DNA of 64,000 nt, from NCBI RefSeq assembly GCF_011764585.1, contig NZ_AP022853.1, positions 1,409,501-1,473,500 of the forward strand, given 5' to 3'. Below, one piece after another: positions 39,977 to 61,981 of this stretch. Position numbers and translations under genes: made by a program. The DNA is from Sulfurimicrobium lacus (lineage in GTDB: Bacteria > Pseudomonadota > Gammaproteobacteria > Burkholderiales > Sulfuricellaceae). The stretch's first letter is position 1. Every line of letters begins with the position of its first letter. The notes below the pieces were generated by a model that was not told where the DNA came from, made no database searches, and saw only the letters and a list, made by a program, of their open reading frames with translations.

Positions 39977-41452
39977 ATGAAATTAATTCCAACAATCCTG
40001 TGTGGCGGGGCCGGTTCCCGCCTTTGGCCCGTTTCCCGGGAATTGCATCCCAAGCCGTTCATCCGGCTCGGCGATGGGCAGAGCCTGCTGCAAAAGGCTT
40101 GGCTGCGCGGGGCCGCATTACCCGATGTTGTCGAAACACTGACCGTCACCAACCGCGAATTGTTTTTCAAGACCGAAGACGAATACCGCGAAGTGGCTGA
40201 CATCGTTGGCGGCAAAGACTTGACCAACCGCTTTATCCTCGAGCCGTTTGGACGCAACACCGCGCCCGCGATTGCCGCGGCCACATTGCAAGTCGCGGCC
40301 ACGCAGGGCGAAGATGCCTGCCTGCTCGTGCTGGCAGCCGATCACCTGATCGCCGATCAGGCCGCATTTGCCCAAGCCGTCTCCAAAGCCATGCAGCTGG
40401 CGGCGCAAGGCAGGCTGGTCACCTTCGGCATCCAGCCGGACATGCCTGAAACCGGCTACGGCTACATTGAGGTCGACCTTGATTCTCCTGTGCCGTTTGT
40501 CGGAGGGCCGGCAGGGGAGAGCGCAGGTTTTCCTGTTGCTCGCTTTGTCGAAAAGCCCGATCTGGAAAAAGCCCTGGAATACCTCGCATCCGGCCGCCAT
40601 TTATGGAACTCGGGCATGTTCTGCTTCCAGGCCGGGACCATGCTGCGCGAGATGCAGCAACATTGCCCGGAGATTCTGGCCGCCAGTCGTGCGTGCCTTG
40701 AGCAATCCCGCACGGCAGAAGGCAAGAGTTTCAGCCAGGTAGACCTTGACGCAACTGCTTTCAAACTCGTGCCGGATGACTCCATCGACTATGCCGTGAT
40801 GGAAAAATCCAGCAACGTCGCCGTCGTGCCATGCAGTATCGGCTGGAGCGACATCGGTTCATGGACCGCGCTGGGCGCCCTTACCGCACCCGATGCACGG
40901 GGCAACCGCATCGAAGGTGAAGTCACCCTGCATGATGTCAGCAACTGCTGCATCCATAGCAATCAACGCATGGTAGGCGCAGTGGGCGTCAACGACCTGA
41001 TCATCATCGATACGCCCGATGCTGTCCTGATCGCCGACCGTAGCCGTGCCCAGGACGTGAAACACATATATGCACGCCTCAAGGCGGAAGGACACAAAAC
41101 CTACCGTCTGCACTCCACCGTTCACCGCCCATGGGGTACCTACACCGTGCTGGAAGAGGGCAGGCACTTCAAGATCAAACGCATCGAGGTCAAACCTGGC
41201 GCCAGCATCAGTTTGCAAATGCACCACCATCGTAGCGAACATTGGGTTGTTGTCAGCGGCATGGCGCGGGTGGTCAATGGCCAGCAAGAACTGTTCGTCA
41301 ACACCAACGAATCCACCTATATTCCCGCAGGACACAAACACCGCCTGGAAAATCCCGGTTTGCTCAACCTGGTGATGATTGAAGTGCAGAGCGGTGAGTA
41401 CCTGGGTGAAGATGACATTGTGCGTTTTGATGATGTCTATGGGCGGTCGTGA
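39977..41452 (+). CDS. manC: Mannose-1-phosphate guanylyltransferase / mannose-6-phosphate isomerase
   Basis: 491-aa bifunctional enzyme making GDP-mannose for exopolysaccharide. The N-terminal nucleotidyltransferase (about 1-340) has the GGAGSRLWPVSRELHPKPF signature, FILEPFGRNTAPAIAAA and GWSDIGSWTAL. The C-terminal cupin-type isomerase domain (about 370-480) has RPWGTYTVLEEG, FKIKRIEVKPGASISLQMHH, HRSEHWVVVSGMARV and YIPAGHKHRLENPG. Length is typical of the type II PMI-GMP family (AlgA, CpsB, XanB). It follows tRNA-Leu and is the first gene of the polysaccharide region. No phosphomannomutase is in the window. Confidence 0.96.
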   Translation: MKLIPTILCGGAGSRLWPVSRELHPKPFIRLGDGQSLLQKAWLRGAALPDVVETLTVTNRELFFKTEDEYREVADIVGGKDLTNRFILEPFGRNTAPAIAAATLQVAATQGEDACLLVLAADHLIADQAAFAQAVSKAMQLAAQGRLVTFGIQPDMPETGYGYIEVDLDSPVPFVGGPAGESAGFPVARFVEKPDLEKALEYLASGRHLWNSGMFCFQAGTMLREMQQHCPEILAASRACLEQSRTAEGKSFSQVDLDATAFKLVPDDSIDYAVMEKSSNVAVVPCSIGWSDIGSWTALGALTAPDARGNRIEGEVTLHDVSNCCIHSNQRMVGAVGVNDLIIIDTPDAVLIADRSRAQDVKHIYARLKAEGHKTYRLHSTVHRPWGTYTVLEEGRHFKIKRIEVKPGASISLQMHHHRSEHWVVVSGMARVVNGQQELFVNTNESTYIPAGHKHRLENPGLLNLVMIEVQSGEYLGEDDIVRFDDVYGRS

Positions 41453-41469
41453 TTTTTTGGCTTGCTAAA

Positions 41470-41486
41470 TGTCGGATTTGTTTACA
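41470..41486 (+). promoter_or_regulatory. Candidate PrsR upstream element, copy 1
   Basis: TGTCGGA-TTTG-TTTACA. One of three copies of TGTCGGA-N4-TTTACA in the window, all upstream of export-locus genes. It lies 96 nt before a sigma-54-type promoter. Recognition by PrsR is inferred. Confidence 0.65.
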
Positions 41487-41582
41487 ACTGGATTAAAATA
41501 GCGCATGGGGTTAAGAGACTGTCGGCAAGTGAAGTGTATACGCCATTGTTTTTTTTTGAATTAAAAGCCGTGTTATATGCAG

Positions 41583-41598
41583 TGGAATGGATTTTGCT
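41583..41598 (+). promoter_or_regulatory. Sigma-54-type promoter of the HPr-rel-A operon
   Basis: TGGAATGGATTTTGCT: the -24 GG and -12 GC lie exactly 12 nt apart and TTGCT matches the -12 consensus. The -24 box is TGGAAT instead of TGGCAC. It is about 100 nt before the ATG at 41698. Confidence 0.65.
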
Positions 41599-41697
41599 TT
41601 TATTTGAATAAACTCCGCGCTCTTGCTTCAGGCTGGATAAATCGCTTTTACTGTGAATGCTATTTGCCGTCGCAAATCGCGTTTCAAGGAGAATGGC

Positions 41698-42396
41698 ATG
41701 AATGCCAAGGAACATCAGGATGGCGAGGTGGAAAAGACACAAGTTTCCCATGATCTCGCTGATTGCACGAAGCCCGTCGATGAATCGCGCAGAGGCTTCA
41801 CCAAGTCGGGTTTGGCTGCATCGGGAGTGTTTCTAACACTCGCCAGCCGGCCCGTGCTGGCTTGTGTATGCAAATCGCCTTCCGGTTTTCTGTCCGGCAA
41901 TGTCAGTACTCATGGCACGCCACAAACGTGCAGCGGCCGGACCCCAGGCTATTGGGGTACTCATCCCCAACAGTGGTCATCGCCATATTTGCCGGGCGAC
42001 TGCAAACATGGAACGTCAGGTACGCACGTGTCGGATTGGTCAGGCGGAACTCAATTCAGCAGCGTTTTTAACTGCAATGGAAATGGATCGATTTACGTCG
42101 CATACCAAGAAGAGCACAAAGACTCCAAAAGATCTAAAACAACTTACCAAAGTTCCGTATATAGCATGATGCAGGTGATTTGGCTGGGCGGGGGCGGGGA
42201 CCCCTACCAGTTGGGGGCGCACATCGTTGCGGCATTACTTAATGCTGTTAAGGGATTGACTCCAACATTGACCGAAGCGCAGGTACTAAACATATTCAAC
42301 GAATGGAATCTGCATGGCTATTTTGAGCCCACTGCCGGTGTCAAGTGGTACGAGGCGGATATTGTTGATTATTTGAAATCCACCATGCCGTTGTAA
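41698..42396 (+). CDS. Tat-signal exported protein with GYW motif, candidate substrate of the HPr-rel-A system
   Basis: 232-aa protein of unknown function. Residues about 30-56 form a twin-arginine signal: SRRGFTKSGLAASGVFLTLA, then SRPVLA just before a Cys-rich start of the mature chain (ACVCKSPSG). The mature part has TCSGRTPGYWGTHPQQW, a variant of the TPGYWKNHP motif of several surface-protein families, and is rich in Gly, Ser and Thr. ATG 41698 follows AAGGAG. It is the first gene of an operon with a PqqD-like chaperone, an HprK-related kinase and a nucleotidyltransferase, and is preceded by a sigma-54-type promoter. Being the modified or exported substrate is inferred from this position. 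Confidence 0.75.
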   Translation: MNAKEHQDGEVEKTQVSHDLADCTKPVDESRRGFTKSGLAASGVFLTLASRPVLACVCKSPSGFLSGNVSTHGTPQTCSGRTPGYWGTHPQQWSSPYLPGDCKHGTSGTHVSDWSGGTQFSSVFNCNGNGSIYVAYQEEHKDSKRSKTTYQSSVYSMMQVIWLGGGGDPYQLGAHIVAALLNAVKGLTPTLTEAQVLNIFNEWNLHGYFEPTAGVKWYEADIVDYLKSTMPL

Positions 42397-42442
42397 CCAG
42401 CGACTTGCCGCTATCTCCTCCCCGCAGACCTGACAAACAAGA

Positions 42443-42715
42443 ATGATGTGGCGACTGATATCCGGTCATGCGCTTCACTTCCGCTCCTGGAACGATGAGT
42501 TCGTTGTATACAACAGCCTCTCTGGGGATACACATCTGCTTGGTTCGGCTGCTGCACATGTCCTGTTGAAATTACAACAAGCGCCAGCGGACGCGGCTGT
42601 ATTGGCAGAATTTCTCGCGCCGGCGCTACAACCCGGTTTCGATGGCGATTTTGTGCTTGAAATTGAGCATCTTCTCGTGGATCTAAACAGACTTGCACTC
42701 GTAGAGCTAAGCTGA
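42443..42715 (+). CDS. PqqD-family peptide chaperone of the HPr-rel-A system
   Basis: 90-aa protein with the PqqD-like fold: LHFRSWNDEFVVYNSLSGDT, then LGSAAAHVLLKLQQAP, then a C-terminal helix (EIEHLLVDLNRLALVELS). PqqD proteins hold a leader peptide for a modifying enzyme. This variant belongs to the group found next to HprK-related kinase A rather than with radical-SAM enzymes. Two adjacent ATGs are possible starts. It ends 2 nt before the kinase start and begins 46 nt after the Tat-signal protein, so all four genes are probably on one mRNA. Confidence 0.85.
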   Translation: MMWRLISGHALHFRSWNDEFVVYNSLSGDTHLLGSAAAHVLLKLQQAPADAAVLAEFLAPALQPGFDGDFVLEIEHLLVDLNRLALVELS

Positions 42716-42717
42716 TT

Positions 42718-43632
42718 TTGAAAGTTTCCGCACTATCGTTTCAGGAACTCGGAATCCGGCTCAAGAAGGGGGGTATCTTCCTCCGAACCGGCTCGTTTGT
42801 TACGCATCTGCAGACCTCGATTTCCAGTGTGGCGGACGGCATCGGGTTGCTCTACGCCGATTACCCTCTGGTGGAGCATGCGGGGTTCGCGGATTTCCAC
42901 GTGAGCCTGGCGTCTCCCAGAACACTGAGGCGCTGGTTCAAACCCCAGGTTTTATTTCTTTTCGACGGGAAGCCCGCATTCAAACCCCTGCCGCTCGACC
43001 AGGCGTTTCCAACATTCGAATGGGGGCTTAATTGGTGTGTATCGAGCCATGCTAATCGTTATCTGATCATCCATGCTGCGGTAGTTGAAAGGGGGGGGTA
43101 TGCTGCAATTTTGCCCGCCCCACCTGGCTCTGGTAAGAGCACCCTGTGCGCGGCCCTGGTGTGCCGTGGCTGGCGACTGCTTTCGGATGAGCTTGCCCTG
43201 GTGCGCGTCAGCGACGGGAAAATCATCCCGCTTCCACGCCCCGTCAGTTTGAAAAATGAATCCATAGATATCATTCAGCGTTATGAGCCGGATGCGGTCT
43301 TTAGCCGCAAGGTCAGCGATACGATGAAGGGCACTGTCGCTCACATGAAAGCGCCCTCGGACAGCATCGCCTACGCAACAGAACCTGCTCGTGCCGCCTG
43401 GGTGATTTTCCCCAAATACCAGGCTGGTGCTGCCACTCGTCTGGAGGCTTTGCCTCAATCCCGGGCTTTTATGCGCGTTGCGGATAACGCTTTTAATTAC
43501 AGTTTGCTGGGCGTCAGGGGCTTCGAGACCATGGCGGGCCTGATTGACGCCTCCCTGTGCTATGATTTTTCGTATAGCGTCCTGGACGAAGCCATTGAAA
43601 CATTTGCCGCATTGAAACCGCCAGTCCCCTGA
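42718..43632 (+). CDS. HprK-related kinase A
   Basis: 304-aa protein with a C-terminal P-loop domain like that of HPr kinase: LPAPPGSGKSTLCAALVCRG (Walker A, about residues 129-148), followed by LLSDELALVRV, with an acidic pair at the Walker B position. The N-terminal half is specific to this group (GIFLRTGSFVTHLQTSI, HVSLASPRTLRRWF). HPr and PTS genes are absent, so its substrate is not HPr. It begins with TTG at 42718, 2 nt after the PqqD-like stop, and ends 1 nt before the GTG of the nucleotidyltransferase. This tight packing with a peptide chaperone points to phosphorylation of a peptide or protein during export, which is inference. Confidence 0.88.
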   Translation: MKVSALSFQELGIRLKKGGIFLRTGSFVTHLQTSISSVADGIGLLYADYPLVEHAGFADFHVSLASPRTLRRWFKPQVLFLFDGKPAFKPLPLDQAFPTFEWGLNWCVSSHANRYLIIHAAVVERGGYAAILPAPPGSGKSTLCAALVCRGWRLLSDELALVRVSDGKIIPLPRPVSLKNESIDIIQRYEPDAVFSRKVSDTMKGTVAHMKAPSDSIAYATEPARAAWVIFPKYQAGAATRLEALPQSRAFMRVADNAFNYSLLGVRGFETMAGLIDASLCYDFSYSVLDEAIETFAALKPPVP

Positions 43633-43633
43633 A

Positions 43634-44710
43634 GTGAATTCACAACCCTTGGTATTGCAGGCGCTCCGGCAACCCGGTTCGTTGATCTCCCTGAGTCTTG
43701 AAGACTGGGACTTGCTCCTGCGTCAGGCGCGACAGGCCAATTTGTTGGCACGCCTCTACGTTTTACTCGACGAACATGGCCTGCTCGAACAGGTGCCGTT
43801 TCAACCGCGCGAGCATCTTGAATGGGTGCACGCCATAGCGGAAAGGCACACCCGGGCTATTCACTGGGAAATAAGCCTGATTCGGAAGGCCTTGGCAAGG
43901 GTCGGGGTGCCGATCATTCTCCTCAAGGGCGCTGCCTACGTCATGGCTGATCTGCCGTCAGCCCGGGGGCGCCTTTTTACCGATATCGACATCATGGTGC
44001 CCAAAGACCGCCTTAATGAGGTGGAGGCCGCCTTGATGCTTCACGGCTGGGCTACAACGCACCACGATGCCTACGACCAGCGCTATTACCGTACCTGGAT
44101 GCATGAATTGCCCCCCATGCAGCATGTCAGGCGATCGACCGTGATCGATGTGCATCACGCGATTCTGCCGGAAACGGCTGCCATCCATCCTGACCCGGAA
44201 AAGCTTCGTGCTGCGGCATGCGCACTGGATGGATGCGATGACATTCAGGTGTTTTCTCCGGCAGATATGGTTCTGCACAGCGCTACTCACCTTTTTCACG
44301 ACGGCGAACTGGAGAATGGCCTGCGCGACCTGGTCGATATTCACAGCCTGTTATGCCATTTCGACAGCTTGCCGACGTTCTGGTCTGATCTCGCTGAACG
44401 GGCGCGGGAACTCGAATTGACGCGGCCCCTTTTCTACGCCTTGCGTTATGCCACGCTTTTCCTGCGCACACCCATCCCAGTCGATGTGCAGGACGCTGCC
44501 AGCACCGGTCGCCCCAATCGGCTCACCCTGGCCCTCATGGATAGCCTCTTCACTCGCGCGCTCATGCCCGTTCACCCGAGTTGCTCCGATGGCTTGACGG
44601 GCAGCGCGCGCTGGATGCTCTATGTCCGTTCTAACTGGCTGCGCATGCCGCCGTTGCTGCTCGCGCGCCATCTATTTCACAAGGCTTTCTTTTCACCCAA
44701 GGCTGAATAA
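43634..44710 (+). CDS. Nucleotidyltransferase-fold protein of the HPr-rel-A operon
   Basis: 358-aa protein of the NTP_transf_5 family. The catalytic-type segment is VPIILLKGAAYVMADLPSAR, then GRLFTDIDIMVPKDRLNEVE, where the paired Asp residues in DIDIMV would bind metal. TVIDVHHAILPE supplies a third acidic position, and a helical domain follows (MVLHSATHLFHDGELENGLR). Members are often found beside HprK-related kinases and polysaccharide loci, but their substrate is unknown. It begins with GTG, 1 nt after the kinase stop. It is the last gene of the operon. The next gene has its own promoter. Confidence 0.87.
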   Translation: MNSQPLVLQALRQPGSLISLSLEDWDLLLRQARQANLLARLYVLLDEHGLLEQVPFQPREHLEWVHAIAERHTRAIHWEISLIRKALARVGVPIILLKGAAYVMADLPSARGRLFTDIDIMVPKDRLNEVEAALMLHGWATTHHDAYDQRYYRTWMHELPPMQHVRRSTVIDVHHAILPETAAIHPDPEKLRAAACALDGCDDIQVFSPADMVLHSATHLFHDGELENGLRDLVDIHSLLCHFDSLPTFWSDLAERARELELTRPLFYALRYATLFLRTPIPVDVQDAASTGRPNRLTLALMDSLFTRALMPVHPSCSDGLTGSARWMLYVRSNWLRMPPLLLARHLFHKAFFSPKAE

Positions 44711-44746
44711 GCAAAGCTGAGGTAAACGGTCTGCCGGCAAAATATA

Positions 44747-44763
44747 TGTCGGAAACTTTTACA
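44747..44763 (+). promoter_or_regulatory. Candidate PrsR upstream element, copy 2
   Basis: TGTCGGA-AACT-TTTACA, upstream of the lytic transglycosylase gene. 74 nt separate it from the sigma-54-type promoter at 44838. Confidence 0.65.
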
Positions 44764-44837
44764 CTTGTAGTGTGATGCTTCGTCATTAATCTCCCTTCCT
44801 GGCTATGCGTTCCATAAATACAACGAGTTGTAAACGT

Positions 44838-44853
44838 TGGAACAGAAAATGCT
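44838..44853 (+). promoter_or_regulatory. Sigma-54-type promoter of the lytic transglycosylase gene
   Basis: TGGAACAGAAAATGCT, with GG and GC 12 nt apart. The boxes are TGGAAC (-24) and ATGCT (-12). It is about 117 nt before the chosen ATG. Confidence 0.55.
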
Positions 44854-44970
44854 GAACGATGAACGAGTCGGAATCAATTTTATGTCATTGCTGCCGCAAT
44901 GCAGGGGAAAGCATTCGTGGGCGCAATAATTACAGATTTGTCGAAGTTGGAAAATATGGGGGGCATTGCA

Positions 44971-45894
44971 ATGGCTTTATCAAGCAAGTCCTTGGCAGTG
45001 CTGACAATATTGTTCTTGTGTGGTGGTGGTTCGGGGGCCATGGCTGAACCCAATTCGCCATTAACCATGCCGGAGGCGTCCGAGAATTCGGATAATCCCA
45101 AAGCCTTGGTTGATATGGCAGTCAAGTACGAACATGCCGAAGGTGTGCAACAGGATTACAAAAAGGCCGTAGACCTTTATTGCCGGGCCGCGCGTCTGGG
45201 TTATGCCGACGCCCAGTACGCGCTCGGCTGGATGTATGCCAATGGCCGCGGCGTTCCCAAGGACGATGGCGTGGCCGCACAATTATTCGCGATGGCGGCC
45301 GAACAGGGGCATCAGTATGCTCGAGTGATGATGCGCTACACCAAGGCGAATACCACAACGCCATTGCCTGCATGTTTGTTGCCCGAGAAACCGGCGGACG
45401 ATGCCTATGACGACGCTGATCACGCAGGTGCAGCAAATTACCCCCAAGGCCCGATCGTCAATCTGGTTCATCAACTGGCGCCTCGCTACGAGGTGGATCC
45501 AAAGCTGGCCCTGGCGATCATCTCGGTAGAGTCGGCTTTCAACGTCCGGGCAATATCGCCCAAGAATGCGCAAGGACTGATGCAACTCATCCCCGAAACG
45601 GCGCAGCGCTTCCGCGTCAAAAATGCCTTCGACCCGGCAGAAAATATCAAGGGTGGCCTGGCCTACCTGAAATGGCTGCTGTCGTTTTTTAGGGGTAATG
45701 TGCCGCTGGTGGCTGCAGCCTACAATGCGGGGGAGGGAGCGGTGGAACGGTATCGCGGAATTCCGCCTTATCCCGAGACCAGGGACTACGTGAAAAAGGT
45801 CACGCGTCTCTACAGAAAGCCCACGCACCCCTACCAGTCCAACGCAACGGAGACATCGTCGTTTGCCGTGGTGCAGGTCAGCTACAGCAAATAG
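44971..45894 (+). CDS. Sel1-repeat lytic transglycosylase (SLT family)
   Basis: 307-aa exported murein lytic transglycosylase. A signal peptide covers about 1-26 (SKSLAVLTILFLCGGGSGAM, then AEP). Two Sel1/TPR-like repeats follow (DYKKAVDLYCRAARLGYADA, ALGWMYANGRGVPKDDGVAA). The SLT domain is at about 165-290: ALAIISVESAFNVRAISPKN with the catalytic Glu, AQGLMQLIPETAQRF, AAAYNAGEGAVERY. The start at 44971 has a G-rich ribosome site. Upstream Met codons would place extra residues before the signal peptide. A PrsR-like element and sigma-54-type promoter precede it. It may open peptidoglycan for assembly of the export machinery. Confidence 0.9.
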   Translation: MALSSKSLAVLTILFLCGGGSGAMAEPNSPLTMPEASENSDNPKALVDMAVKYEHAEGVQQDYKKAVDLYCRAARLGYADAQYALGWMYANGRGVPKDDGVAAQLFAMAAEQGHQYARVMMRYTKANTTTPLPACLLPEKPADDAYDDADHAGAANYPQGPIVNLVHQLAPRYEVDPKLALAIISVESAFNVRAISPKNAQGLMQLIPETAQRFRVKNAFDPAENIKGGLAYLKWLLSFFRGNVPLVAAAYNAGEGAVERYRGIPPYPETRDYVKKVTRLYRKPTHPYQSNATETSSFAVVQVSYSK

Positions 45895-49893: not shown

Positions 49894-51291
49894 ATGTTTC
49901 GGATTGCCAATCACTACGTCTCAATCACAGGAATCATTCTTTTTGCAATTGAAGTGCTTGTGTTGTTGGCTTCAGTCTACTTGGGCGCTTCTATCCGGTT
50001 CATGGAAATAGCGCAGCCTTTTGCCACTGAGCATCTAAGTCTTTTTCCGCAGGCAAGCACTTTTGTATTCGTGATGCTCTTGAGCATGACTGCACTAGGG
50101 ATGTATCAACTGGATTACCGTGAGGATTTCAGGAGTACTTTGCTCCACCTCATGCCCGCGCTTGTCTTGGGATTCGGACTCATAACCCTGATTTTTTACT
50201 TGGCACCGGATCTGTATTTCGGCCGCGGAATTTTGGGCATCATCATGCTTCTTTCCGCCTCGGGAATATTTTTGACGCGACTTGTTTTTTATCGGTGGAC
50301 CGATCTCCGACTCCTCTCGCCGCGCATCATGGTTTTGGGTGTGGGCTCCGTGGCCAAGGAATGCGGGGATCTGGCCTGGAATAATCATTGTTTCCACAAA
50401 GGCAATATCGTTGGCTTTGTCCCGATGCCCAATGAAGAATGTCTTGTGCCCTCTTCATCTGTATTACCGGAGAGTGGGTCGCTGCCATCCATGGCAAAGA
50501 AATACAACGTGAATGAAATCGTGGTGGCGGTACAGAACCGGCGTAGCGGAAGTTTTCCCATTCAGGACCTTCTGGAATGCAAGCTGAATGGAATCAAAGT
50601 AAGCGATGCCGCGTCCTTTTTCGAGCGCGAGGTGTGCCAGATCCGGGTCGATTCGCTTCAGCCGAGCTGGCTGGTATTCGGTGGGGGATTTGACCAGGGG
50701 GTCCTGCGTGCCGGCATAAAGAGGAGCTTCGATTTATTTGCAAGCATAATCCTTCTGATCGCCACCTTTCCCATCATGTTGATTACCGCCCTGTGTGTCG
50801 TTATCGAAGACGGTATGCCCATCCTTTATCGTCAGGAAAGAGTGGGCAAGGACGGTCGCCCCTTTATGGTCATGAAGTTCCGCAGTATGCGAAACAACGC
50901 CGAGAAGGAAGGGAAGCCGCAATGGGCGGCTGAGAACGACCCACGCACCACGAAGGTGGGGCGGATCATCCGTAAATTGAGAATCGACGAGCTTCCTCAA
51001 ATCCTCAATGTCCTCAGGGGGGAAATGAGTTTTGTCGGACCCCGACCGGAACGCCCCTTCTTCGTGAAACAACTCTGCGAGGAGATACCCTATTACAATG
51101 TGAGGCACAGCATCAAGCCGGGCATTACCGGCTGGGCTCAAGTGCGCTATCAATATGGTGCGTCGGTCGAGGATGCCATACAAAAGCTCCAATACGACCT
51201 GTACTATGTGAAGAACAACAGTTTGTTCCTGGATATAATCATATTGATAGATACTGTCCAGGTAGTCCTGTTTGGTAAAGGCGGGAGATGA
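49894..51291 (+). CDS. Exosortase-system polyprenyl glycosylphosphotransferase (EpsB-type initiating sugar transferase)
   Basis: 465-aa inner-membrane enzyme that starts repeat-unit assembly by moving a sugar phosphate to undecaprenyl phosphate. The N-terminal half has four membrane helices and a Rossmann-like CoA-binding-type region (LLSPRIMVLGVGSVAKECGD). The C-terminal catalytic domain reads IKRSFDLFASIILLIATFPI, RQERVGKDGRPFMVMKFRSM, LRIDELPQILNVLRGEMSFV, then GPRPERPFFV. The architecture matches the EpsB/PEP-CTERM-associated sugar transferase group. The ATG at 49894 has GTGAGGAG upstream. An upstream frame is not conserved in character. prsK starts 19 nt after its stop. Confidence 0.93.
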   Translation: MFRIANHYVSITGIILFAIEVLVLLASVYLGASIRFMEIAQPFATEHLSLFPQASTFVFVMLLSMTALGMYQLDYREDFRSTLLHLMPALVLGFGLITLIFYLAPDLYFGRGILGIIMLLSASGIFLTRLVFYRWTDLRLLSPRIMVLGVGSVAKECGDLAWNNHCFHKGNIVGFVPMPNEECLVPSSSVLPESGSLPSMAKKYNVNEIVVAVQNRRSGSFPIQDLLECKLNGIKVSDAASFFEREVCQIRVDSLQPSWLVFGGGFDQGVLRAGIKRSFDLFASIILLIATFPIMLITALCVVIEDGMPILYRQERVGKDGRPFMVMKFRSMRNNAEKEGKPQWAAENDPRTTKVGRIIRKLRIDELPQILNVLRGEMSFVGPRPERPFFVKQLCEEIPYYNVRHSIKPGITGWAQVRYQYGASVEDAIQKLQYDLYYVKNNSLFLDIIILIDTVQVVLFGKGGR

Positions 51292-51310
51292 TTTCGGGAC
51301 TCGGCTTTCC

Positions 51311-53389
51311 ATGTTGACAAGCGTTGCGGCATATAGTTATTCCATCGCGGCACTCGCGTTTCTATTCTTGAGCGGCCTCCTGCTGACCAGCTGGCGCGGT
51401 CGGCTTCATGGGATAAGGCTGACCATCGCCTGCCTGCTTTCTGCGCTTTGGGCTGCGACGGTTGCCTACCAGGTCGCCTGGGGAAAGCCCTTGTCGTTCC
51501 TGACAGATGTCCTGGAAATCTTTCGCAATGCCGGCTGGTCAATTTTCCTGATCATGTTGCTGGAGCCCTTCCAGAAGACGGGGGCTTCCGCCACTGAAAG
51601 GGCCAGACCATTTGCCGCAGTTATCGCGGCTATATATTTGTTGCTTCTTGTCGCGACCATATTCATTCACTGGCGAAGCGGGCCGCCTCAGGAAACGCTA
51701 GCTTTCATGACGCTCGTCACCGGGCGTGTGGCCATGGCAATCATGGGCATGATCCTGGTGGAGCAGTTCTACCGGAACACCCCTGCCAAGCAGCGCTGGG
51801 GGATAAAATATGCTTGCCTGGGTATCGGCGGCGTGTTCGCCTATGATTTTTACATGTACAGCGACGCCATGTTGTTCAGACAAGTGAATTCGGAAATATG
51901 GGCAGCACGAGGGATCGTCAATGCCCTGATCGTTCCTCTTATCGCAGTATCGGCTGCACGCAGTCCGCAGTGGTCGTTGGGGATTTCGCTGTCGCGTCGC
52001 ATCCTGTTTCATTCGGCGGCCCTGTTCGGTGCCGCACTCTACTTGCTGGCGATGGCCGCGACCGGCTACTACCTGCGTTTTTTCGGCGGAAGTTGGGGGA
52101 CGGTCTTGCAAGCGGCATTCTTGTTCGGTGCCGTGATTTTGCTAATGGGGGTGCTTTTTTCCGGAACTTTGCGTTCATGGCTCAAAGTATTCATCAGCAA
52201 GCATTTTTTTATTTACAACTATGATTATCGCGAGGAATGGCTGCGCTTTACCCGTACCCTGTCCGAGGTCGGACATGGACTGGGGGAGCGCACCATCCAG
52301 GCCGTAGCCGAGTTGGTGGAAAGTCCCGGTGGGGCTTTGTGGATCAACCGGGAATCCGGTAGTTGCGAACTCGTGGTGCACTGGAATATGCCCTTGGCCA
52401 AAGGGGACGAGCCGGCAAATAGTTCCTTTTGCCAATTCCTGGAAAACAAGCAGTGGGTGATCGATTTGCAGGAATACGACTCAAGCCCTGAAAAATATGG
52501 AGTAATTGCCATGCCGCAATGGCTGCGCTCCATTCCCAAGGTTTGGCTGGTGGTTCCGCTGATTCAGCAGCGGAAGCTGTTTGGCTTCGTGGTACTGGCG
52601 CAGCCAAGGAGCAAAATCAGGTTGAATTGGGAGGTGAGCGACCTGCTCAAAATCGCCGGCAAACAGGCAGCAAGTTACCTTGCACAACAGGAAGCGGACA
52701 AGGCGCTCATGGTGGCGCGTCAGTTTGAATCTTTCAATCGCATGTCCACCTTTGTGGTGCACGACCTGAAAAACCTTGTTTCCCAGTTGTCCCTCATGCT
52801 TTCCAACGCCGAAAAACACAAGAATAATCCCGAGTTCCAGAAAGATATGATCGAGACGGTGGATCTTTCCATTCAGAAAATGAAACGGCTTCTGCAAAAA
52901 CTGAGTAGCGGAGCGTCCATCGAAAAGCCGGCACCGCTATTTATCGACCAGCTCTTACAGCAAGCGGTGGCAGCAAAATCCGCTGTCGAGCCGAAGCCGG
53001 TGCTGGAAATACTGGAGCCTGGTCAGATGGTAATGGCAAACTGGGCACGCCTCGAACGGATAATCGGGCACCTTATACAGAACGCCATGGAAGCCATTCC
53101 GCGAGACGGCCAAGTACGTGTGTGCCTGACCAAGGATAACGATGCCGCAATCGTGGAGATCAAGGATACGGGGCATGGCATGAGCGAAGCATTTATCCGC
53201 GAGCGGTTGTTCAAACCTTTTGAATCCACGAAATCGGCAGGCATGGGCGTTGGTGTGTTTGAGAGCCGGGAATATGTCCACGAACTTGGCGGAAAACTTG
53301 AGGTGACCAGCGAGCCGTCAATCGGCACGACCTTCCGCATGACTTTGCCGCTTTGCAATCAGAACCACGCTGTCGAGAAAGCCGCATAA
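51311..53389 (+). CDS. prsK: PEP-CTERM-system sensor histidine kinase PrsK
   Basis: 692-aa membrane kinase. Eight or so helices span about residues 5-300. A GAF-like region follows (about 330-470; EVGHGLGERTIQAVAELVES), then the kinase core: phospho-acceptor His in STFVVHDLKNLVSQLSLMLS, N-box RIIGHLIQNAMEAIP, G1 IKDTGHGMSE and a short G2 (KSAGMGVGVFESREYVHELG). This layout is that of PrsK, which pairs with PrsR in exosortase loci. The ATG at 51311 avoids overlap with the previous gene. An earlier Met at 51272 would overlap it. prsR begins 17 nt downstream. Confidence 0.93.
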   Translation: MLTSVAAYSYSIAALAFLFLSGLLLTSWRGRLHGIRLTIACLLSALWAATVAYQVAWGKPLSFLTDVLEIFRNAGWSIFLIMLLEPFQKTGASATERARPFAAVIAAIYLLLLVATIFIHWRSGPPQETLAFMTLVTGRVAMAIMGMILVEQFYRNTPAKQRWGIKYACLGIGGVFAYDFYMYSDAMLFRQVNSEIWAARGIVNALIVPLIAVSAARSPQWSLGISLSRRILFHSAALFGAALYLLAMAATGYYLRFFGGSWGTVLQAAFLFGAVILLMGVLFSGTLRSWLKVFISKHFFIYNYDYREEWLRFTRTLSEVGHGLGERTIQAVAELVESPGGALWINRESGSCELVVHWNMPLAKGDEPANSSFCQFLENKQWVIDLQEYDSSPEKYGVIAMPQWLRSIPKVWLVVPLIQQRKLFGFVVLAQPRSKIRLNWEVSDLLKIAGKQAASYLAQQEADKALMVARQFESFNRMSTFVVHDLKNLVSQLSLMLSNAEKHKNNPEFQKDMIETVDLSIQKMKRLLQKLSSGASIEKPAPLFIDQLLQQAVAAKSAVEPKPVLEILEPGQMVMANWARLERIIGHLIQNAMEAIPRDGQVRVCLTKDNDAAIVEIKDTGHGMSEAFIRERLFKPFESTKSAGMGVGVFESREYVHELGGKLEVTSEPSIGTTFRMTLPLCNQNHAVEKAA

Positions 53390-53406
53390 CCGGCAAGAGG
53401 GAACCA

Positions 53407-54759
53407 GTGAGCCAAACCAAAAAACACCTGCTGATTATCGAAGACGACCCCGGCTTGCAAAAACAGCTACGCTGGAGCTTTGACGCATACGAAGTGCTGG
53501 TGGCGGGGGACCGGGAAAGTGCACTGGCGCAGGTTAGGCGCTACGAACCCGCGGTCGTAACCATGGACCTAGGACTTCCCCCCGACCCGGACGGCGCTTC
53601 CGAAGGCTTGGCCACCCTGAAGCAGATACTTGCGCTCGCACCCGACACCAAGGTGATCGTCCTTACCGGCAATCAGGATCACGCCAATGCGGTGAAAGCC
53701 ATCGGAATGGGCGCTTATGATTTCCATCAAAAACCATTCGACCCCGAGATGCTGGGGCTGGTGATCGAGAGGGCCTTCTACCTGAATGCGCTGCAGCAGG
53801 AAAACCGCCGTCTACTGCAGACTCAATCCGATTCCCCTTTATCCGGGATTATCAGCCGGGATCCCAGCTTGGCCAAGGTATGTCGTAACGTGGAGAAAGT
53901 GGCTCCTTCCGATGCCACTGTTATGCTGTTGGGTGAAAGCGGAACGGGCAAGGAGGTGCTGGCGAAAGCGTTGCATCAGCTAAGCCCCAGGCATGGGAAG
54001 CGTTTCATGGCCATCAATTGTGCGGCGATCCCGGAAAACCTCCTGGAAAGTGAGCTGTTCGGCTACGAGAAAGGCGCTTTTACCGGTGCGGCCAAGCAGA
54101 CCCTGGGTAAAATAGAACTCGCCAATGGGGGCACCTTTTTCCTCGATGAGGTGGGGGATCTTCCCATGGCTTTGCAGGCGAAACTTCTGCGCTTTCTGCA
54201 GGAACGGGTGATCGAAAGAATCGGGGGACGAGAAGAAATTCCCGTGGATGTGCGTATTGTCTGCGCCACCCATCAGAACCTGAAAGAACTGATCGTGGCT
54301 GGGCGATTCCGGGAAGATCTCTATTACCGCTTGAGCGAGATCGTGGTAACCATTCCCCCCTTACGGGACCGGGTGGGCGATGCCACGCTGCTGGCGCATC
54401 ACTTCAAGAACAAGTTCAGTACGCATGAGGGGCGTTCTTCGCTGAATTTCAGTCAGGAGGCGCTGGTCGCGATCGAAAGCTATTCATGGCCGGGTAATGT
54501 GCGTGAATTGGAAAACTGTATCAAGCGTGCAGTAATCATGACTGACGGTCCACAAATTAGCGCAGAAGATCTTGGATTGCAGGATTCACCCGCAATGGAA
54601 GAACCCATCAACCTGCGCCAAGTGCGTGAAGAAGCCGAATACAAGGCCTTGGTGAAGGCTTTGGCAAGGGTGGATGGCAATCTTGTCAAGGCAGCAGAAC
54701 TGCTCGGCATCAGCCGCCCCACGATTTATGACCTGATGAGCCGTCATGGGATCAAGTAA
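53407..54759 (+). CDS. prsR: PEP-CTERM-system sigma-54-dependent response regulator PrsR
   Basis: 450-aa NtrC-type activator. The receiver (about 5-125) has LLIIEDDPGLQKQL and the phospho-acceptor Asp in VVTMDLGLPPDPDGA. The AAA+ domain (about 150-385) has Walker A GESGTGKEVLAKALHQ, the sigma-54 contact YEKGAFTGAAKQ, Walker B GGTFFLDEVGDLP and the arginine finger region FREDLYYRLSEIVVTIPPLR. The C-terminal Fis-type helix-turn-helix is DGNLVKAAELLGISRPTIYD. The GTG at 53407 follows GAGGGAACC. The intact GAFTGA means it must act through RpoN. Three -24/-12 promoters with a shared upstream element in this window are likely targets. Confidence 0.95.
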   Translation: MSQTKKHLLIIEDDPGLQKQLRWSFDAYEVLVAGDRESALAQVRRYEPAVVTMDLGLPPDPDGASEGLATLKQILALAPDTKVIVLTGNQDHANAVKAIGMGAYDFHQKPFDPEMLGLVIERAFYLNALQQENRRLLQTQSDSPLSGIISRDPSLAKVCRNVEKVAPSDATVMLLGESGTGKEVLAKALHQLSPRHGKRFMAINCAAIPENLLESELFGYEKGAFTGAAKQTLGKIELANGGTFFLDEVGDLPMALQAKLLRFLQERVIERIGGREEIPVDVRIVCATHQNLKELIVAGRFREDLYYRLSEIVVTIPPLRDRVGDATLLAHHFKNKFSTHEGRSSLNFSQEALVAIESYSWPGNVRELENCIKRAVIMTDGPQISAEDLGLQDSPAMEEPINLRQVREEAEYKALVKALARVDGNLVKAAELLGISRPTIYDLMSRHGIK

Positions 54760-54813: not shown

Positions 54814-56652
54814 GTGAGCGGCCTGTGCGGATGGATCGGCCATGGTGCCGCGGCAACGGATAATCGTCAGCTGGTCGAGAAAATGGCCGGAGCGCTGGCT
54901 CGTTTCGACGCCAGCAGCATTCAGTCGTTGGCGGGGGGGGAGAGCGCCCTCGCGGTTTCTGCCAACCGCGAGAGCGCGCATGTTTACCAGAAGGAGGGCC
55001 TTCTGGTCGCAGTATGGGGCCAAGTCGGATTCAAGGATGCGCGGCTAGCGCAGATGGCGCGGGCAGAGGGAGTGGCCAAAATCCTGGCCGATGGCTGGCG
55101 GGCGAAAGGTGGGCAGGCTTGTGCGGATTTGTCAGGCGCATTTTCTCTTTGCGTCCTGGACGAGAACGCAGGCGAAGCTCTTCTGGCAATCGACCGCATG
55201 GGCTCCAACCCGCTTTCTTACCAGGTTTCGGGCGAATGCCTGGTTTTCGGTTCTTCAGCAGATGCTCTTAATCTTCACCCGCTGGCAAGGTCGGAAATCG
55301 ATCCGCAGGGTCTATATAACTACGTCTATTTCCACATGATTCCGGGTGCCGGCACGGTCTACAAGAGCCAGCAGCGACTTCTTCCCGGCGAATATCTCAT
55401 TTACAGGAATGGAAAGGCGGAAACCCGGAAATACTGGGAAATGCAGTTTCTGGAAGATCAGAAGCTGCCTATGGGTGAACTCAAGCAGGAATTTCTGCAG
55501 CTATTGCACTCAAGCGTGCGCGAAGCCGTTGGAACACAGCAAGTGGGGGCCTTTCTTAGCGGCGGGACGGATAGTTCCACGATTGCAGGGATTTTGGGTG
55601 CGGTGAGTGGCGAGCCCGCCCGGACCTACTCCATCGGCTTTGAAGCCGATGGCTATGACGAGATGGATTATGCCCGTATCGCGGCACGGCATTTTTCTAC
55701 CCAGCACCACGAGTACTACGTTACGCCGGATGATGTGGTGGCGGCCATTCCGCAGATTGCGGCGGTCTTCGATCAACCCTTCGGCAACGCTTCCGCGGTG
55801 CCCGCCTTTTATTGCGCACGCATGGCAAGAGCGGATGGATTGAGCAGGATTCTGGGCGGTGACGGGGGAGACGAGCTGTTCGGCGGTAACGAGCGGTATG
55901 CCAAGCAGCGAATATTTTCGCTCTACGAACGTATCCCTTCGCCGTTGCGCAAAGGGGTCCTCGAACCCCTCGTGTACAATTTTCCCGGTGGCCAGAGGGT
56001 TTCGCTGTTGCGCAAGGCTCGCAGCTACATCGAGCAGGCCTCGGTGCCGATGCCGGCGCGTCTGGAAACCTATAACCTGCTGGAGCGCTATGGCCCTGAA
56101 AAGGTGTTCACGCGGGATTTTCTGGCGACTGCGGACGCGGGGCAGCCGCTCTCCCGTTTGAACGCAACATACGGCCAAGCCCATGCGCACAGTTTGATCA
56201 ACCATATGCTTGCGCTTGACCTTAAGTTCACTCTCGCCGACAACGATCTTCCCAAAGTGGTCAAAGCCTGCGAAATGGCCGGGATGGAGGTGGCGTTTCC
56301 ATTTCTAAACGACGAAATGGTGGCCTTCTCGGCGCGGCTGGAACCTGAGCTCAAACTCAAGGGGACAAAGCTCCGCTATTTTTTCAAGGAAGCGCTGCGC
56401 GATTTTCTGCCAAACGAGATCATCACCAAGCAAAAACATGGCTTCGGATTGCCTTTTGGTGTCTGGCTCCAGGACCACAAGCCGCTGCAGGCGCTGGCTG
56501 CCGACAGCCTGACCGATCTGAAATCGCGCCACATCATACGCGCCGATTTCATCGATAAGCTGCTGGGGGAACATCTGGACGAGCATGCCGGCTACCACGG
56601 CACCATGGTCTGGGTGTTGATGATGCTGGAACAATGGTACCGGCAGCGCTAG
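54814..56652 (+). CDS. XrtA/PEP-CTERM-associated asparagine-synthetase-like amidotransferase
   Basis: 612-aa protein of the asparagine synthetase B family, typical of exosortase loci and probably amidating a sugar or precursor for the exopolysaccharide. The N-terminal glutaminase-type domain (1-200) and C-terminal synthetase (210-610) are both full length. Synthetase motifs: VGAFLSGGTDSSTIAGILG (PP-loop), FEADGYDEMDYARIAARHFS, LGGDGGDELFGGNERYAKQR and ITKQKHGFGLPFGVWL. The start reads MSGLCGWIGHG: the Cys that normally follows Met directly as glutaminase nucleophile lies at position 5. The GTG at 54814 has AGGAAA at good spacing, while an in-frame CTG at 54823 would give the canonical MCGWIG. 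It is downstream of prsR. Confidence 0.9.
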   Translation: MSGLCGWIGHGAAATDNRQLVEKMAGALARFDASSIQSLAGGESALAVSANRESAHVYQKEGLLVAVWGQVGFKDARLAQMARAEGVAKILADGWRAKGGQACADLSGAFSLCVLDENAGEALLAIDRMGSNPLSYQVSGECLVFGSSADALNLHPLARSEIDPQGLYNYVYFHMIPGAGTVYKSQQRLLPGEYLIYRNGKAETRKYWEMQFLEDQKLPMGELKQEFLQLLHSSVREAVGTQQVGAFLSGGTDSSTIAGILGAVSGEPARTYSIGFEADGYDEMDYARIAARHFSTQHHEYYVTPDDVVAAIPQIAAVFDQPFGNASAVPAFYCARMARADGLSRILGGDGGDELFGGNERYAKQRIFSLYERIPSPLRKGVLEPLVYNFPGGQRVSLLRKARSYIEQASVPMPARLETYNLLERYGPEKVFTRDFLATADAGQPLSRLNATYGQAHAHSLINHMLALDLKFTLADNDLPKVVKACEMAGMEVAFPFLNDEMVAFSARLEPELKLKGTKLRYFFKEALRDFLPNEIITKQKHGFGLPFGVWLQDHKPLQALAADSLTDLKSRHIIRADFIDKLLGEHLDEHAGYHGTMVWVLMMLEQWYRQR

Positions 56653-59197: not shown

Positions 59198-61981
59198 CTA
59201 TAACTGCTTCAATAAGGCTTTTGCCTCCGCAATCTGGGAAAAAGTTTTCCCGGAGGCCAGAAGTTGTTCCAGTTCCTTGCGTGCCTTGGCCTTGTCGCCG
59301 GACTTTACCAGGGCAAGCACGAAATGGTAGCGGATATCCGCCGCTTCCGGTGCGAGAGTGCTTGCCTTTTGCAGGTTCGGAAGTCCATGCGTTGTGTCGC
59401 CTTGTTCCACCATAATCCAACCCAGCGTATCCAGTATCGCCGGGTTGTTGGGTGCCAACTGGTCCGCCTTCTTGGCGTATTCCAGAGCCCGGGAATCTTT
59501 TTCCTGCTGGTAGAGCCAAGCCAGGTTGTTCAGTGCCGGGACATAGTTCGGGTTCTGCTGCAGTACAGTCTGATATTGATCGATGGCTGCCTTGTTTTCC
59601 TTGTTGGCGAGATAAATTCCTGCTCGGTACATGCGGGTCGTAATATCGCCAGGATGGTCTTTCAGCCATTGGGTCAGGCGTACGTCAGCTTCCTTGCCTT
59701 TGCCAGCCTGTGTGAGGGACGCATGCAGTTTCATCATGAGAGGGCCGGTCTTGCCAATTGTGAACGCTCGTTCATAGGCATTCGCGGCAAGATCCGGTTT
59801 TTTTTGCGTCATCAGCAAGTTACCTTCCAGCTCATAACCTACTGGGGATTTCCCGTTTTTCTTCTGGATCTGCTTGGCAATTTCGAGTGCCTGGTCGTGA
59901 TTCCCTTGGCTGCCCACTAGAGTCGCCAAGGCCAACTGTGCATCGAGAAAATCAGGTTGTATTACCAGCGCTTTTTTCAGGGCGTTCAATGCCTCGGTCT
60001 GGTTCTGCATTGCCATGTGAATGGCGGCGATGCGGAACTGGGCCTGGGCGGAATCCGGTTTCAAGGCAGCGAGCCTGGTGTACGTTTCCAGTGCGCGCGT
60101 CTTATCACCGCTGGCGAATTGTGCCTGTGCCAGAATGTCCAGAACTTCTGCGCTGCTGGGGTTGGAACCCTCAAGTTTTTTTGCAAGCGTCAGCGCCTTC
60201 TGTTTATCTCCTATGCGCAAATAATGGGCGGCAAGCACCATGGCCGGTTTTAATGCGTCGGGGTTTTCCTTGCTGGCGTTTTCCAGCCAGGCCGTGGCTT
60301 CCTTGATTTGTCCTTGGGAAAGCGCAAGCTGGGCCAGTGCAGTCATTATCTCAACATTTTTTTTGTCTTTTTCGAGGATTGCCTCTAGGCGCTTTTTGGC
60401 GGCCTCAGGTTTCTTTTCCTGCAGATCGAGCTGTACCAGGTTCATCACTGCCGGGTAATAGGCGGGCCGGATGGAAAGCGCTTTTTCGAAACTTGCGCGA
60501 GCATTAACGAAATCTTTCATGCCTATATAGGCCGCACCTTTCAGATTACAGGCCAAGGGATTGTCAGGCTGTTCCTTTTCCATTGTTTTTGCGGCATTGA
60601 GCGCCTTATCGTATTCCTTGAGTCGAAGATGGGTCATCACCAGGAAAACGCTGGCCTTGGGTGATTTGGTATCCAATTCCACCGCTGCTTCCATTTCGGC
60701 GACAGCACGGTCGTTTTCGCCTAGAGCAAGCTTGCTCAAGCCCAATGCAGAATGGAGTTGTGCCGATTTCGGGGCAAGCGCGCTGGCCTTCGTAAAATAA
60801 TCAGTCGCTTTGGTGTAGTCCCCTGCCTGCATATACAATTCACCTGCGAGAGCGAACAGTTGCCCATCCTGTTGCTTATCCGTGAGCGCCGGGGACAGTA
60901 CATCTAATGCATCCTGTGTCTGATGGTCCTTCATCAGGGTGGACGCAAGCAATTTGCGGGCATAAAGATTCCCTGGGTTTACTCCCAGATATTTTTTCAA
61001 GTATTGTTCGGCTTGAGGCATCGACCCCAGGGAATATTGCACGGCCCCAGCCAGCAGTATGCTGGGCATGTGTTCTGGTGCGGTGCGCAGGACCTGCTGC
61101 AGGGAGTCCAAAGCGGCCGCAGGCTTCCCTTGGCTGAAATCGAGCAGCGCCTGGCTGTAGAATACGATCAGGCTATTGGGGGCCGCCTTGCGTACCACGT
61201 CAATGTTGGCCTTGGCTGCGTCGAATTTGCCCGCAGCGATTTCCAGGAAGGCCTTGTTTATATTGGCTGACTTATTGCCTGGTTGTATTTTTAAAACCTG
61301 GTCATAGGCTGCGAGGGCTTGCTCAGTTTTCCCTTGTGCGCGCAGCAAGTCGCCTTTGAAAAGCCAGGCATCAGTGTCCTGCGGGTTCTGGCTTACCGCT
61401 TGCTCTGAAAATCGCGTTGCGTCTTCAATATTTTTCTCTGTGAGCGAATACTTGGCCATACCGATAAGTGCATCAGGGTGTCCGGGCTTGTTCTTCAGCG
61501 CTTGCTCAAATGATTCCCTGGCTTCCTTGGTCTTGCCCAAAGCCAAATATGCATTGCCACGCAAGCTAGAAATTTCAGCCGAAGCCTTTTCTCCTGAGAT
61601 CTGTTTTGTTTCATCCAGAACGCTCTGGAACCGACCCTCGGCGAGCAGGGTTTTCCCCAGGTCAGGCACCACCACGGCAGGACTCATGCCCAGCTTCAAA
61701 GCCCTGCGGAGTTCATTCTCGGCCGATTTGTGGTCCTCTGTTTTGACGTACATTACGCCCAGGAGATAGCGTGCTTTTGCATCATCCGGGTTCTTTTGCA
61801 AGGCATTCTTGAGCTGGATAATGGCGGCCTTGAGATCGCCTTTTTGCTGAAGCTGCTCGGCATCGGCAACCAGAGTCTGGGCGGTCTGCGTCTTGCCGCA
61901 GGAAGTGAGACCACCCATGAACAGGGCCGCGCCAAACAGAATGAAGGTGGTTTTCATCAGGTTGTTTCTGGAATTAGGCAT
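59198..61981 (-). CDS. prsT: PEP-CTERM-system TPR-repeat lipoprotein PrsT
   Basis: 927-aa exported lipoprotein made of about two dozen tetratricopeptide repeats. The signal (MKTTFILFGAALFMGGLTSC from residue 9) ends in a lipobox with Cys28, so it should be anchored to the outer membrane or periplasmic face. Repeats are regular (for example DDAKARYLLGVMYVKTEDHK, NPAILDTLGWIMVEQGDTTH). This is the length and form of the PEP-CTERM-associated TPR lipoprotein, thought to help assembly or sorting of exported polysaccharide and proteins. The ATG at 61981 has AGGAGAG six nt upstream, so the longer N-terminus is used. The VanZ-repeat gene follows about 100 nt downstream. Confidence 0.94.
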   Translation of the reverse strand: MPNSRNNLMKTTFILFGAALFMGGLTSCGKTQTAQTLVADAEQLQQKGDLKAAIIQLKNALQKNPDDAKARYLLGVMYVKTEDHKSAENELRRALKLGMSPAVVVPDLGKTLLAEGRFQSVLDETKQISGEKASAEISSLRGNAYLALGKTKEARESFEQALKNKPGHPDALIGMAKYSLTEKNIEDATRFSEQAVSQNPQDTDAWLFKGDLLRAQGKTEQALAAYDQVLKIQPGNKSANINKAFLEIAAGKFDAAKANIDVVRKAAPNSLIVFYSQALLDFSQGKPAAALDSLQQVLRTAPEHMPSILLAGAVQYSLGSMPQAEQYLKKYLGVNPGNLYARKLLASTLMKDHQTQDALDVLSPALTDKQQDGQLFALAGELYMQAGDYTKATDYFTKASALAPKSAQLHSALGLSKLALGENDRAVAEMEAAVELDTKSPKASVFLVMTHLRLKEYDKALNAAKTMEKEQPDNPLACNLKGAAYIGMKDFVNARASFEKALSIRPAYYPAVMNLVQLDLQEKKPEAAKKRLEAILEKDKKNVEIMTALAQLALSQGQIKEATAWLENASKENPDALKPAMVLAAHYLRIGDKQKALTLAKKLEGSNPSSAEVLDILAQAQFASGDKTRALETYTRLAALKPDSAQAQFRIAAIHMAMQNQTEALNALKKALVIQPDFLDAQLALATLVGSQGNHDQALEIAKQIQKKNGKSPVGYELEGNLLMTQKKPDLAANAYERAFTIGKTGPLMMKLHASLTQAGKGKEADVRLTQWLKDHPGDITTRMYRAGIYLANKENKAAIDQYQTVLQQNPNYVPALNNLAWLYQQEKDSRALEYAKKADQLAPNNPAILDTLGWIMVEQGDTTHGLPNLQKASTLAPEAADIRYHFVLALVKSGDKAKARKELEQLLASGKTFSQIAEAKALLKQL

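Follow-up and report, generated by a model that had tools for sequence, protein, structure and literature searches.

The stretch of DNA analyzed here, called the window, comprises 64,000 nucleotides (nt) of the genome of Sulfurimicrobium lacus (contig NZ_AP022853.1, positions 1,409,501 to 1,473,500), and unlabelled coordinates below refer to it. On its forward strand lies an operon of four genes separated by gaps of 46, 2, and 1 nt, a member of the HPr-rel-A system (TIGR04352 and TIGR04353) with both enzymes scoring above the curated cut-offs. The first gene (41698..42396; ATG start with AAGGAGA 5' of it) encodes the candidate substrate, a "GYW" protein of 232 amino acids (aa) with an arginine-arginine (RR) leader and a GYW domain. 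It is followed by genes for PqqD_rel_X, a putative leader-binding chaperone (42443..42715; TIGR04353, 53.5 bits, cut-off 35), which ends 2 nt 5' of the kinase gene; for the HprK-related kinase A, HprK_rel_A (42718..43632; TTG start; TIGR04352, 406 bits, cut-off 200); and for NTP_transf_5, a nucleotidyltransferase-fold enzyme (43634..44710; GTG start; PF14907, 200 bits, cut-off 31.2). An earlier note on this DNA had described the four genes in this order and with this spacing, which the gene coordinates confirm, and the three family names that it used all hold at the curated cut-offs. The GYW protein itself matched no NCBIfam or Pfam family at E 0.1, and none of the exported partners scanned from related operons had an NCBIfam family over cut-off. 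A Foldseek search of its predicted model against the PDB gave a best match of E 0.9 only, and VIA-align 2 over 531 Foldseek chains returned one row with a Z of 2.1; these searches do not show that the fold is new or that the protein lacks one.

We compared the operon with those in a family sample of 22 genomes and a class sample of 369 genomes, 41 of which encode a kinase over the TIGR04352 cut-off and are called kinase-positive. Kinases over the cut-off in both samples gave 48 further regions (49 with the window), and a set of named genomes comprised the best 80 of at least 589 kinase relatives, which leans to window-like kinases. Identical kinases were collapsed to 121 distinct kinases, and a leader protein is encoded just upstream of 119 of them. 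The partner was present in 48 of the 49 loci of the first set (lenient threshold, leader checked by eye), and a profile built from 29 first-set proteins, the window protein included, found a same-strand upstream homologue in 79 of the 80 named loci. One miss (L126; L and G labels are our own for loci and genomes) lies on a contig with only 567 nt upstream. Within the family sample, a kinase over the cut-off and a GYW protein occur in exactly the same 9 of 22 genomes. NTP_transf_5 is encoded in all 80 named loci and PqqD in 77 (absent from L147, L175, and L213). Malonomonas rubra (L183), of the phylum Thermodesulfobacteriota, has the partner, PqqD, the kinase, and NTP_transf_5, which suggests wider spread or transfer. 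The earlier note had asked whether the first-gene protein always accompanies the kinase/chaperone pair, and with 119 of 121 distinct kinases it is present beside nearly all of them rather than absent beside most. Judged from this gene neighborhood, the proposal of the earlier note that the first gene encodes the substrate is well supported.

The partners share the leader pattern S-R-R-x-F-x-K…T-L-x-S-x-P, the conserved terminal leader that the earlier note had suggested looking for. In the window protein, the leader core spans residues 31-55, RRGFTKSGLAASGVFLTLASRPVLA (41788..41862, forward strand), as delimited by class-1 conservation and by the leader alignment and profile. Of 76 candidates, 47 were kept in that alignment, after 7 had failed the leader pattern and 22 had been removed by hand. 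Class 1 denotes the GYW partners: 127 partners, minus 9 repeats and minus 9 GYW-less ones, gave 109 unique proteins, in which T47 is conserved in 88, S50 in 94, R51 in 68, and P52 in 79. The earlier note had taken a "Tat-GYW" protein as the constant partner, Tat standing for twin-arginine translocation; the part that stands is the first gene with its leader, which is nearly universal, but the GYW domain is not, and 9 of the 121 distinct kinases lie beside RR-leader proteins that we class as lacking it. The same leader occurs in the GYW-less partners of L224, L226, L227, L228, L232, and L233, and the smallest GYW-less partner (L119), with 74 aa, consists of the leader and about 12 further residues, GSACISCNASLI. 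Kinases below the TIGR04352 cut-off also lie beside leader mini-proteins of 56-87 aa (L241, L242, L243, L244, and L259), accompanied by PqqD in L241, L242, and L259 and by NTP_transf_5 in L259 only; overall, the leader mini-proteins seen beside distant kinases measure 56-90 aa. Because the GYW-less partners and mini-proteins have the same leader, the constant feature is the leader and not the GYW domain, while the cargo varies; this element is new to the account of the system.

The mini-protein loci came from two kinds of search, L241-L247 being picked by leader hits and L254-L259 by the kinase alone. In the kinase-picked regions, an RR mini-open reading frame (ORF) lies on the kinase strand in L254, L257, and L259 (weak profile scores); the mini-ORF of L255 starts with K-R, the sole RR ORF of L256 is weak and lies on the opposite strand, and L258 has none. 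Several of these loci show unusual arrangements. L242:5653-6885 contains three tandem RR-leader mini-proteins of 66-87 aa between a PqqD-like gene and the sub-cut-off HprK-related kinase. In L254:1559-2803 and L257:3635-4828, a PqqD-like part is joined to a kinase part in a single protein, encoded beside the RR mini-ORF and NTP_transf_5, and lasso PqqD models hit the L254 fusion with scores under their cut-offs. L256:2368-4776 is an 802-aa frame with an HprK-related kinase and a stretch weakly like the PgaC/IcaA glycosyltransferase (25.6 bits, sub-cut-off), possibly a kinase-glycosyltransferase fusion. GYW-like domains are also found in larger or partial proteins (L250:2920-4812, L251:2226-3653, L252:1443-2315, and L248:2-625); profiles for the HprK-like kinase, PqqD, and NTP had no match in the 5-7 kilobases (kb) examined around each. 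Three of these four kinase-less proteins begin like Sec-signal proteins, and from its sequence context the GYW-like domain appears to be a module of its own.

As judged by eye, the window protein has an RR motif and a hydrophobic stretch like those of Tat substrates, and it shares with generic Tat substrates the small residues at the likely cleavage point. The leader could thus be a Tat signal only, with the other three proteins acting elsewhere, for example on a PEP-CTERM protein or a sugar carrier, and the first gene being a passenger co-regulated by the response regulator PrsR. This alternative would fit the presence of other exported proteins in the regulon described below and the occurrence of some leader proteins away from any listed kinase. 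Several observations make it unlikely. The leader is conserved far past the RR motif, and the conservation of T47, S50, R51, and P52 exceeds the Tat consensus. The leader and the neighboring enzymes stay the same when one mature part is exchanged for another. A 36-aa leader profile hit 50 of the 369 class-sample genomes, 35 of the 41 kinase-positive but just 15 of the 328 kinase-negative ones (p = 6e-31); the profile was partly trained on these genomes, so that 35 of 41 is not independent and 15 of 328 is the figure for specificity. A broader partner profile hit 44 genomes, 34 of the 41 kinase-positive and 10 of the 328 kinase-negative ones (hand count). By our reading of the lists, each of the 42 genomes in which the leader was hit at E <= 1e-6 also has a TIGR04352 match below 1e-4. 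In 33 of them this match is over the cut-off, in eight it stands at 1.5e-10 or better, and in one (G069) it stands at 8.8e-5 and may represent an ordinary HPr kinase. When a leader profile was run at E < 0.01 against the 10,258 ORFs in the 80 named loci, its only hits were upstream ORFs, in 79 of these loci; the proteins hit here belonged to its training set. All these whole-genome searches scored the best few candidates per genome (6 for the kinase, 7 for the exosortase, and up to 21 for the leader), which makes absences soft. The leader is therefore not a generic Tat signal, as it is rare outside genomes with the kinase.

The region directly behind the leader contains a candidate modification site. 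The segment C58-K-S-P-S62-G-F-L-S66 (41869..41895, forward strand) is predicted to lack structure, and among the 109 unique class-1 proteins C58 is conserved in 106, S62 in 106, and S66 in 107, along with C78 in 104 and N182 in 107. The partner alignment comprised 66 of the 79 named partners and the window protein, leaving out near-identical, over-long, and odd sequences; the model of the GYW protein (67 sequences) is confident from about residue 80 on, with the GYW domain well predicted, and low before residue 80, with a mean predicted local distance difference test score (pLDDT) of 50 for residues 61-70 and values below 50 for residues 38-50 and 63-66. The two near-invariant serines in a floppy post-leader segment look like a target of the kinase, as far as conservation and the model can be taken as a guide. 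C-x(2,3)-S occurs within 45 residues of the leader core in 102 of the 109 class-1 proteins. The sequence V53-L54-A55-C56 of the window protein also resembles a lipobox, and the partner could be a Tat-exported lipoprotein anchored via the post-leader cysteine. A lipobox-like A/G-C right after the leader is found by a simple pattern in 14 of 110 class-1 proteins, and the lipobox is not a feature of the family because the other 96 do not match; we regard lipid anchoring as the least probable of the alternatives. A universal serine or threonine site at the C-terminus was considered and dropped: T229 is threonine in 69 and serine in 11 of the 109 class-1 proteins.

The enzymes of the operon resemble those that tailor lasso peptides. 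According to the passages on PsmK and PsmN in PMC9266682 and PMC8498205, PsmK phosphorylates the C-terminal serine of pseudomycoidin and PsmN leads to a hexose on that phosphate; ruminal lasso clusters are reported in PMC7533575 to encode an HPr kinase, a PqqD, and an uncharacterised nucleotidyltransferase. Like the paeninodin (PadeK) and pseudomycoidin (PsmK/PsmN) systems, the operon combines a PqqD-like leader binder, an HprK-like kinase, and a nucleotidyltransferase with a leader-bearing precursor, but the precursor here, at 232 aa, includes a domain that is predicted to fold. The residues H119, K140, D157, and E158 are present in all 121 distinct kinases; this H-K-D-E tetrad resembles, with Glu in place of the last Asp, the catalytic His-Lys-Asp-Asp that PMC9266682 describes for the lasso-tailoring kinases, with residue equivalence to PadeK assumed. 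The B2 transglutaminase-like leader protease (PF13471) had 0 matches in the whole genome, and no lactam-forming cyclase was found by NCBIfam and Pfam scans of the six proteins encoded at 39977-45894. About 10 kb away, an asparagine-synthase-like gene (54814-56652) best matches the XrtA amidotransferase (300 bits, cut-off 816.9) and scores 100 bits with the lasso cyclase model (cut-off 525). Searches of our literature collection by the name of the HPr-rel-A system found no paper, and searches for its components yielded papers on lasso peptides or papers with unrelated titles.

A kinase of this type might alternatively have no role in maturation and instead be a regulatory HPr-type kinase/phosphorylase that controls export or the use of carbon. 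Its distant relation to HPr(Ser) kinase is seen in a TIGR00679 score of 14.6 bits and in PDB HprK chains matching at E of about 8e-4. The TIGR00679 score falls far short of the cut-off of 240 bits, the constant partner is a leader-bearing protein and not HPr, and 15 HPr-kinase-like loci of the family (2-3 kb each) contained no leader-profile ORF below E 0.1. We consider this explanation very improbable.

The last enzyme, NTP_transf_5, has an invariant D117-x-D119 (33 and 35 sequences) and also retains H174-H175. Its model has a pLDDT of 92, and its top fold matches, over part of the length, are mostly nucleotidyltransferases including ANT(2'')-Ia and LnuA, with only one match below E 1e-3; phmmer against PDB sequences found nothing at E 1. 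Such matches to nucleotidyl-transferring enzymes, together with the intact DxD, would agree with a transfer of adenosine, uridine, or guanosine monophosphate (AMP, UMP, or GMP) to the substrate, the kinase supplying the phosphate acceptor and no sugar being involved. FKRP, a transferase acting in glycosylation, is also among the fold matches, at E 0.7 only, and points away from this. So does the product of PsmN as reported in the passages of PMC9266682, a hexosylated phosphoserine; that review leaves open whether nucleotidylation precedes hexosylation by PsmN. Nucleotidylation without a sugar is a serious contender, though we lean against it.

The upstream region ties the operon to the PEP-CTERM/exosortase regulon. 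Haft 2006 (PMC1569441) describes, in its text, a regulatory motif 1 that is 17 nt long, has TTTACA at its end, and precedes a sigma-54 motif, and our matches were judged against this description. A motif search found an exact box, TGTCGGATTTGTTTACA, at 41470..41486; a degenerate second copy, TGTCGGCAAGTGAAGTG, lies at 41520..41536 (likeness judged by eye), and a sequence match revealed a sigma-54 -24/-12 site, TGGAATGGATTTTGCT (GG-N10-GC), at 41583..41598, all on the forward strand. The earlier claim of a sigma-54-type promoter and a TGTCGGA element is borne out by the exact box and the GG-N10-GC site. The exact box lies 96 nt and the degenerate one 46 nt from the sigma-54 site. The former gap exceeds the maximum of 92 nt in the text of PMC1569441 and is within the range of the homologous operons, in which nearly all distances are 62-98 nt. 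Counting only the window, three boxes at two or fewer mismatches compare with 0.73 expected, and 5 of 100 shuffles reach three, which is weak. All three are exact, in a genome of 3.83 Mb with only 5 exact boxes, and they precede the kinase operon, a Sel1/SLT gene at 44899, and, by about 200 nt, a PEP-CTERM gene (62378-63139). A box with two or fewer mismatches is present 5' of 82 of 127 homologous operons, against 0.64 per set in 2-mer shuffles (77 of 119 without eight repeated loci; the upstream sequence is shorter than 600 nt in six of the 127). Up to 130 nt past the box, 67 of these 82 have a sigma-54-like site with three or fewer mismatches, against 2.0 in shuffles. The second exact box of the window (44747-44763) lies just 3' of the operon, ahead of the Sel1/SLT transglycosylase gene (44899-45894), and no matching sigma-54 site was seen there by eye.

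The window also encodes the regulatory proteins expected for these sites: on the forward strand the histidine kinase PrsK (51272..53389; TIGR02916, 890.7 bits) and the sigma-54-dependent response regulator PrsR (53353..54759; TIGR02915, 768.1 bits), the predicted box binder, and on the reverse strand PrsT, a tetratricopeptide repeat protein of the PrsK/PrsR system (59198..61981; TIGR02917, 954 bits). Further products of the window are an XrtA-type glycosyltransferase and two PEP-CTERM proteins. In the class sample, an exosortase (PF09721, E <= 0.001) was found in 38 of the 41 kinase-positive and 89 of the 328 kinase-negative genomes (Fisher p = 1.6e-16; the table was compiled by reading the two genome lists), and the kinase-positive genomes G073, G078, and G307 had no exosortase match among the best 7 candidates scored. 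The operon thus resembles members of the regulon by its box and sigma-54 site and by the presence of PrsK, PrsR, and PrsT in the window. It differs in its partner protein, which has no C-terminal PEP-CTERM domain (no TIGR02595 match at E 0.1). As far as sites and co-occurrence go, the link of the operon to the exosortase regulon is confirmed.

Together, we consider it probable, from sequence and by analogy, that the operon makes one modified, exported protein. PrsK/PrsR and sigma-54 would switch the operon on together with the PEP-CTERM genes, as the sites and regulators suggest. PqqD_rel_X may then bind the leader of the first protein, in line with the conservation of the leader and with the PqqD-family B1 proteins of lasso peptides. 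HprK_rel_A would phosphorylate a serine in the flexible segment behind the leader, S62 or S66 in the window protein, and NTP_transf_5, its DxD being intact, may attach a nucleotide or sugar, with that phosphate as the most likely acceptor, in the manner reported for PsmN and hexose. The leader, which is also Tat-like, would direct the protein from the cytoplasm to the outside, where the exopolysaccharide/PEP-CTERM surface matrix is a possible destination.

Several observations weigh against this proposal. The box, at two or fewer mismatches, was found ahead of 5 of the 9 GYW-less partners. A Nitrosospira metagenome-assembled genome (L147) keeps the kinase and NTP_transf_5, and the 2 kb upstream contain neither a partner nor PqqD; its kinase, at 10001-10921, may be part of a system that is degraded or acts in trans. 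At E <= 1e-6, eleven leader hits have no kinase within 3 kb among the matches listed, no kinase was seen in the 5-8 kb examined at each of the mini-protein loci L245, L246, and L247, and a 398-aa protein with leader and GYW domain (L253:3405-4601) has none in its 7.5 kb; the genome of the latter (G317) carries the operon on another contig. As to export, none of ten scanned partners reached the cut-off of the Tat model TIGR01409 (5 of 10 gave sub-cut-off hits), and the window protein gave no hit. As to the site, the precedent lasso kinases modify a C-terminal serine, whereas the window protein ends in M-P-L, and 12 of the 15 GYW-less partners have a C-x-x-S in their last 40 residues, near the C-terminus (by eye). 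Since the proposed serine follows the leader in class 1 but the C-x-x-S of these 12 lies near the C-terminus, no single site rule is established. The remaining three GYW-less partners (L106, L108, and L127) have Ser-Ile without cysteine, and a common C-x(2,3)-S theme across the partner classes is suggestive. Finally, the parallel between PsmN and NTP_transf_5 (PF14907) is drawn from descriptions of PsmN in the review passages.

More tentatively, and with somewhat less than even confidence, these operons may represent a general class of leader-guided phospho-, and perhaps glyco- or nucleotidyl-, modified exported proteins. One leader would serve both the PqqD/HprK machine (usually with NTP_transf_5) and Tat-type export, with cargo that ranges from some 12 residues up to folded domains of roughly 150, chiefly in Proteobacteria producing PEP-CTERM proteins. 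For the HPr-rel-A families, on which our literature collection yielded no paper, our analysis points to a substrate, to a short serine-containing tail as its likely site of modification, and to enzymes that track the leader over the cargo. If this is true, the phospho-tailoring of lasso peptides would be one branch of a wider marking of exported proteins, and an unusually modified exported protein could be tested for by mass spectrometry in strains of Massilia, Noviherbaspirillum, or Thiobacillus.

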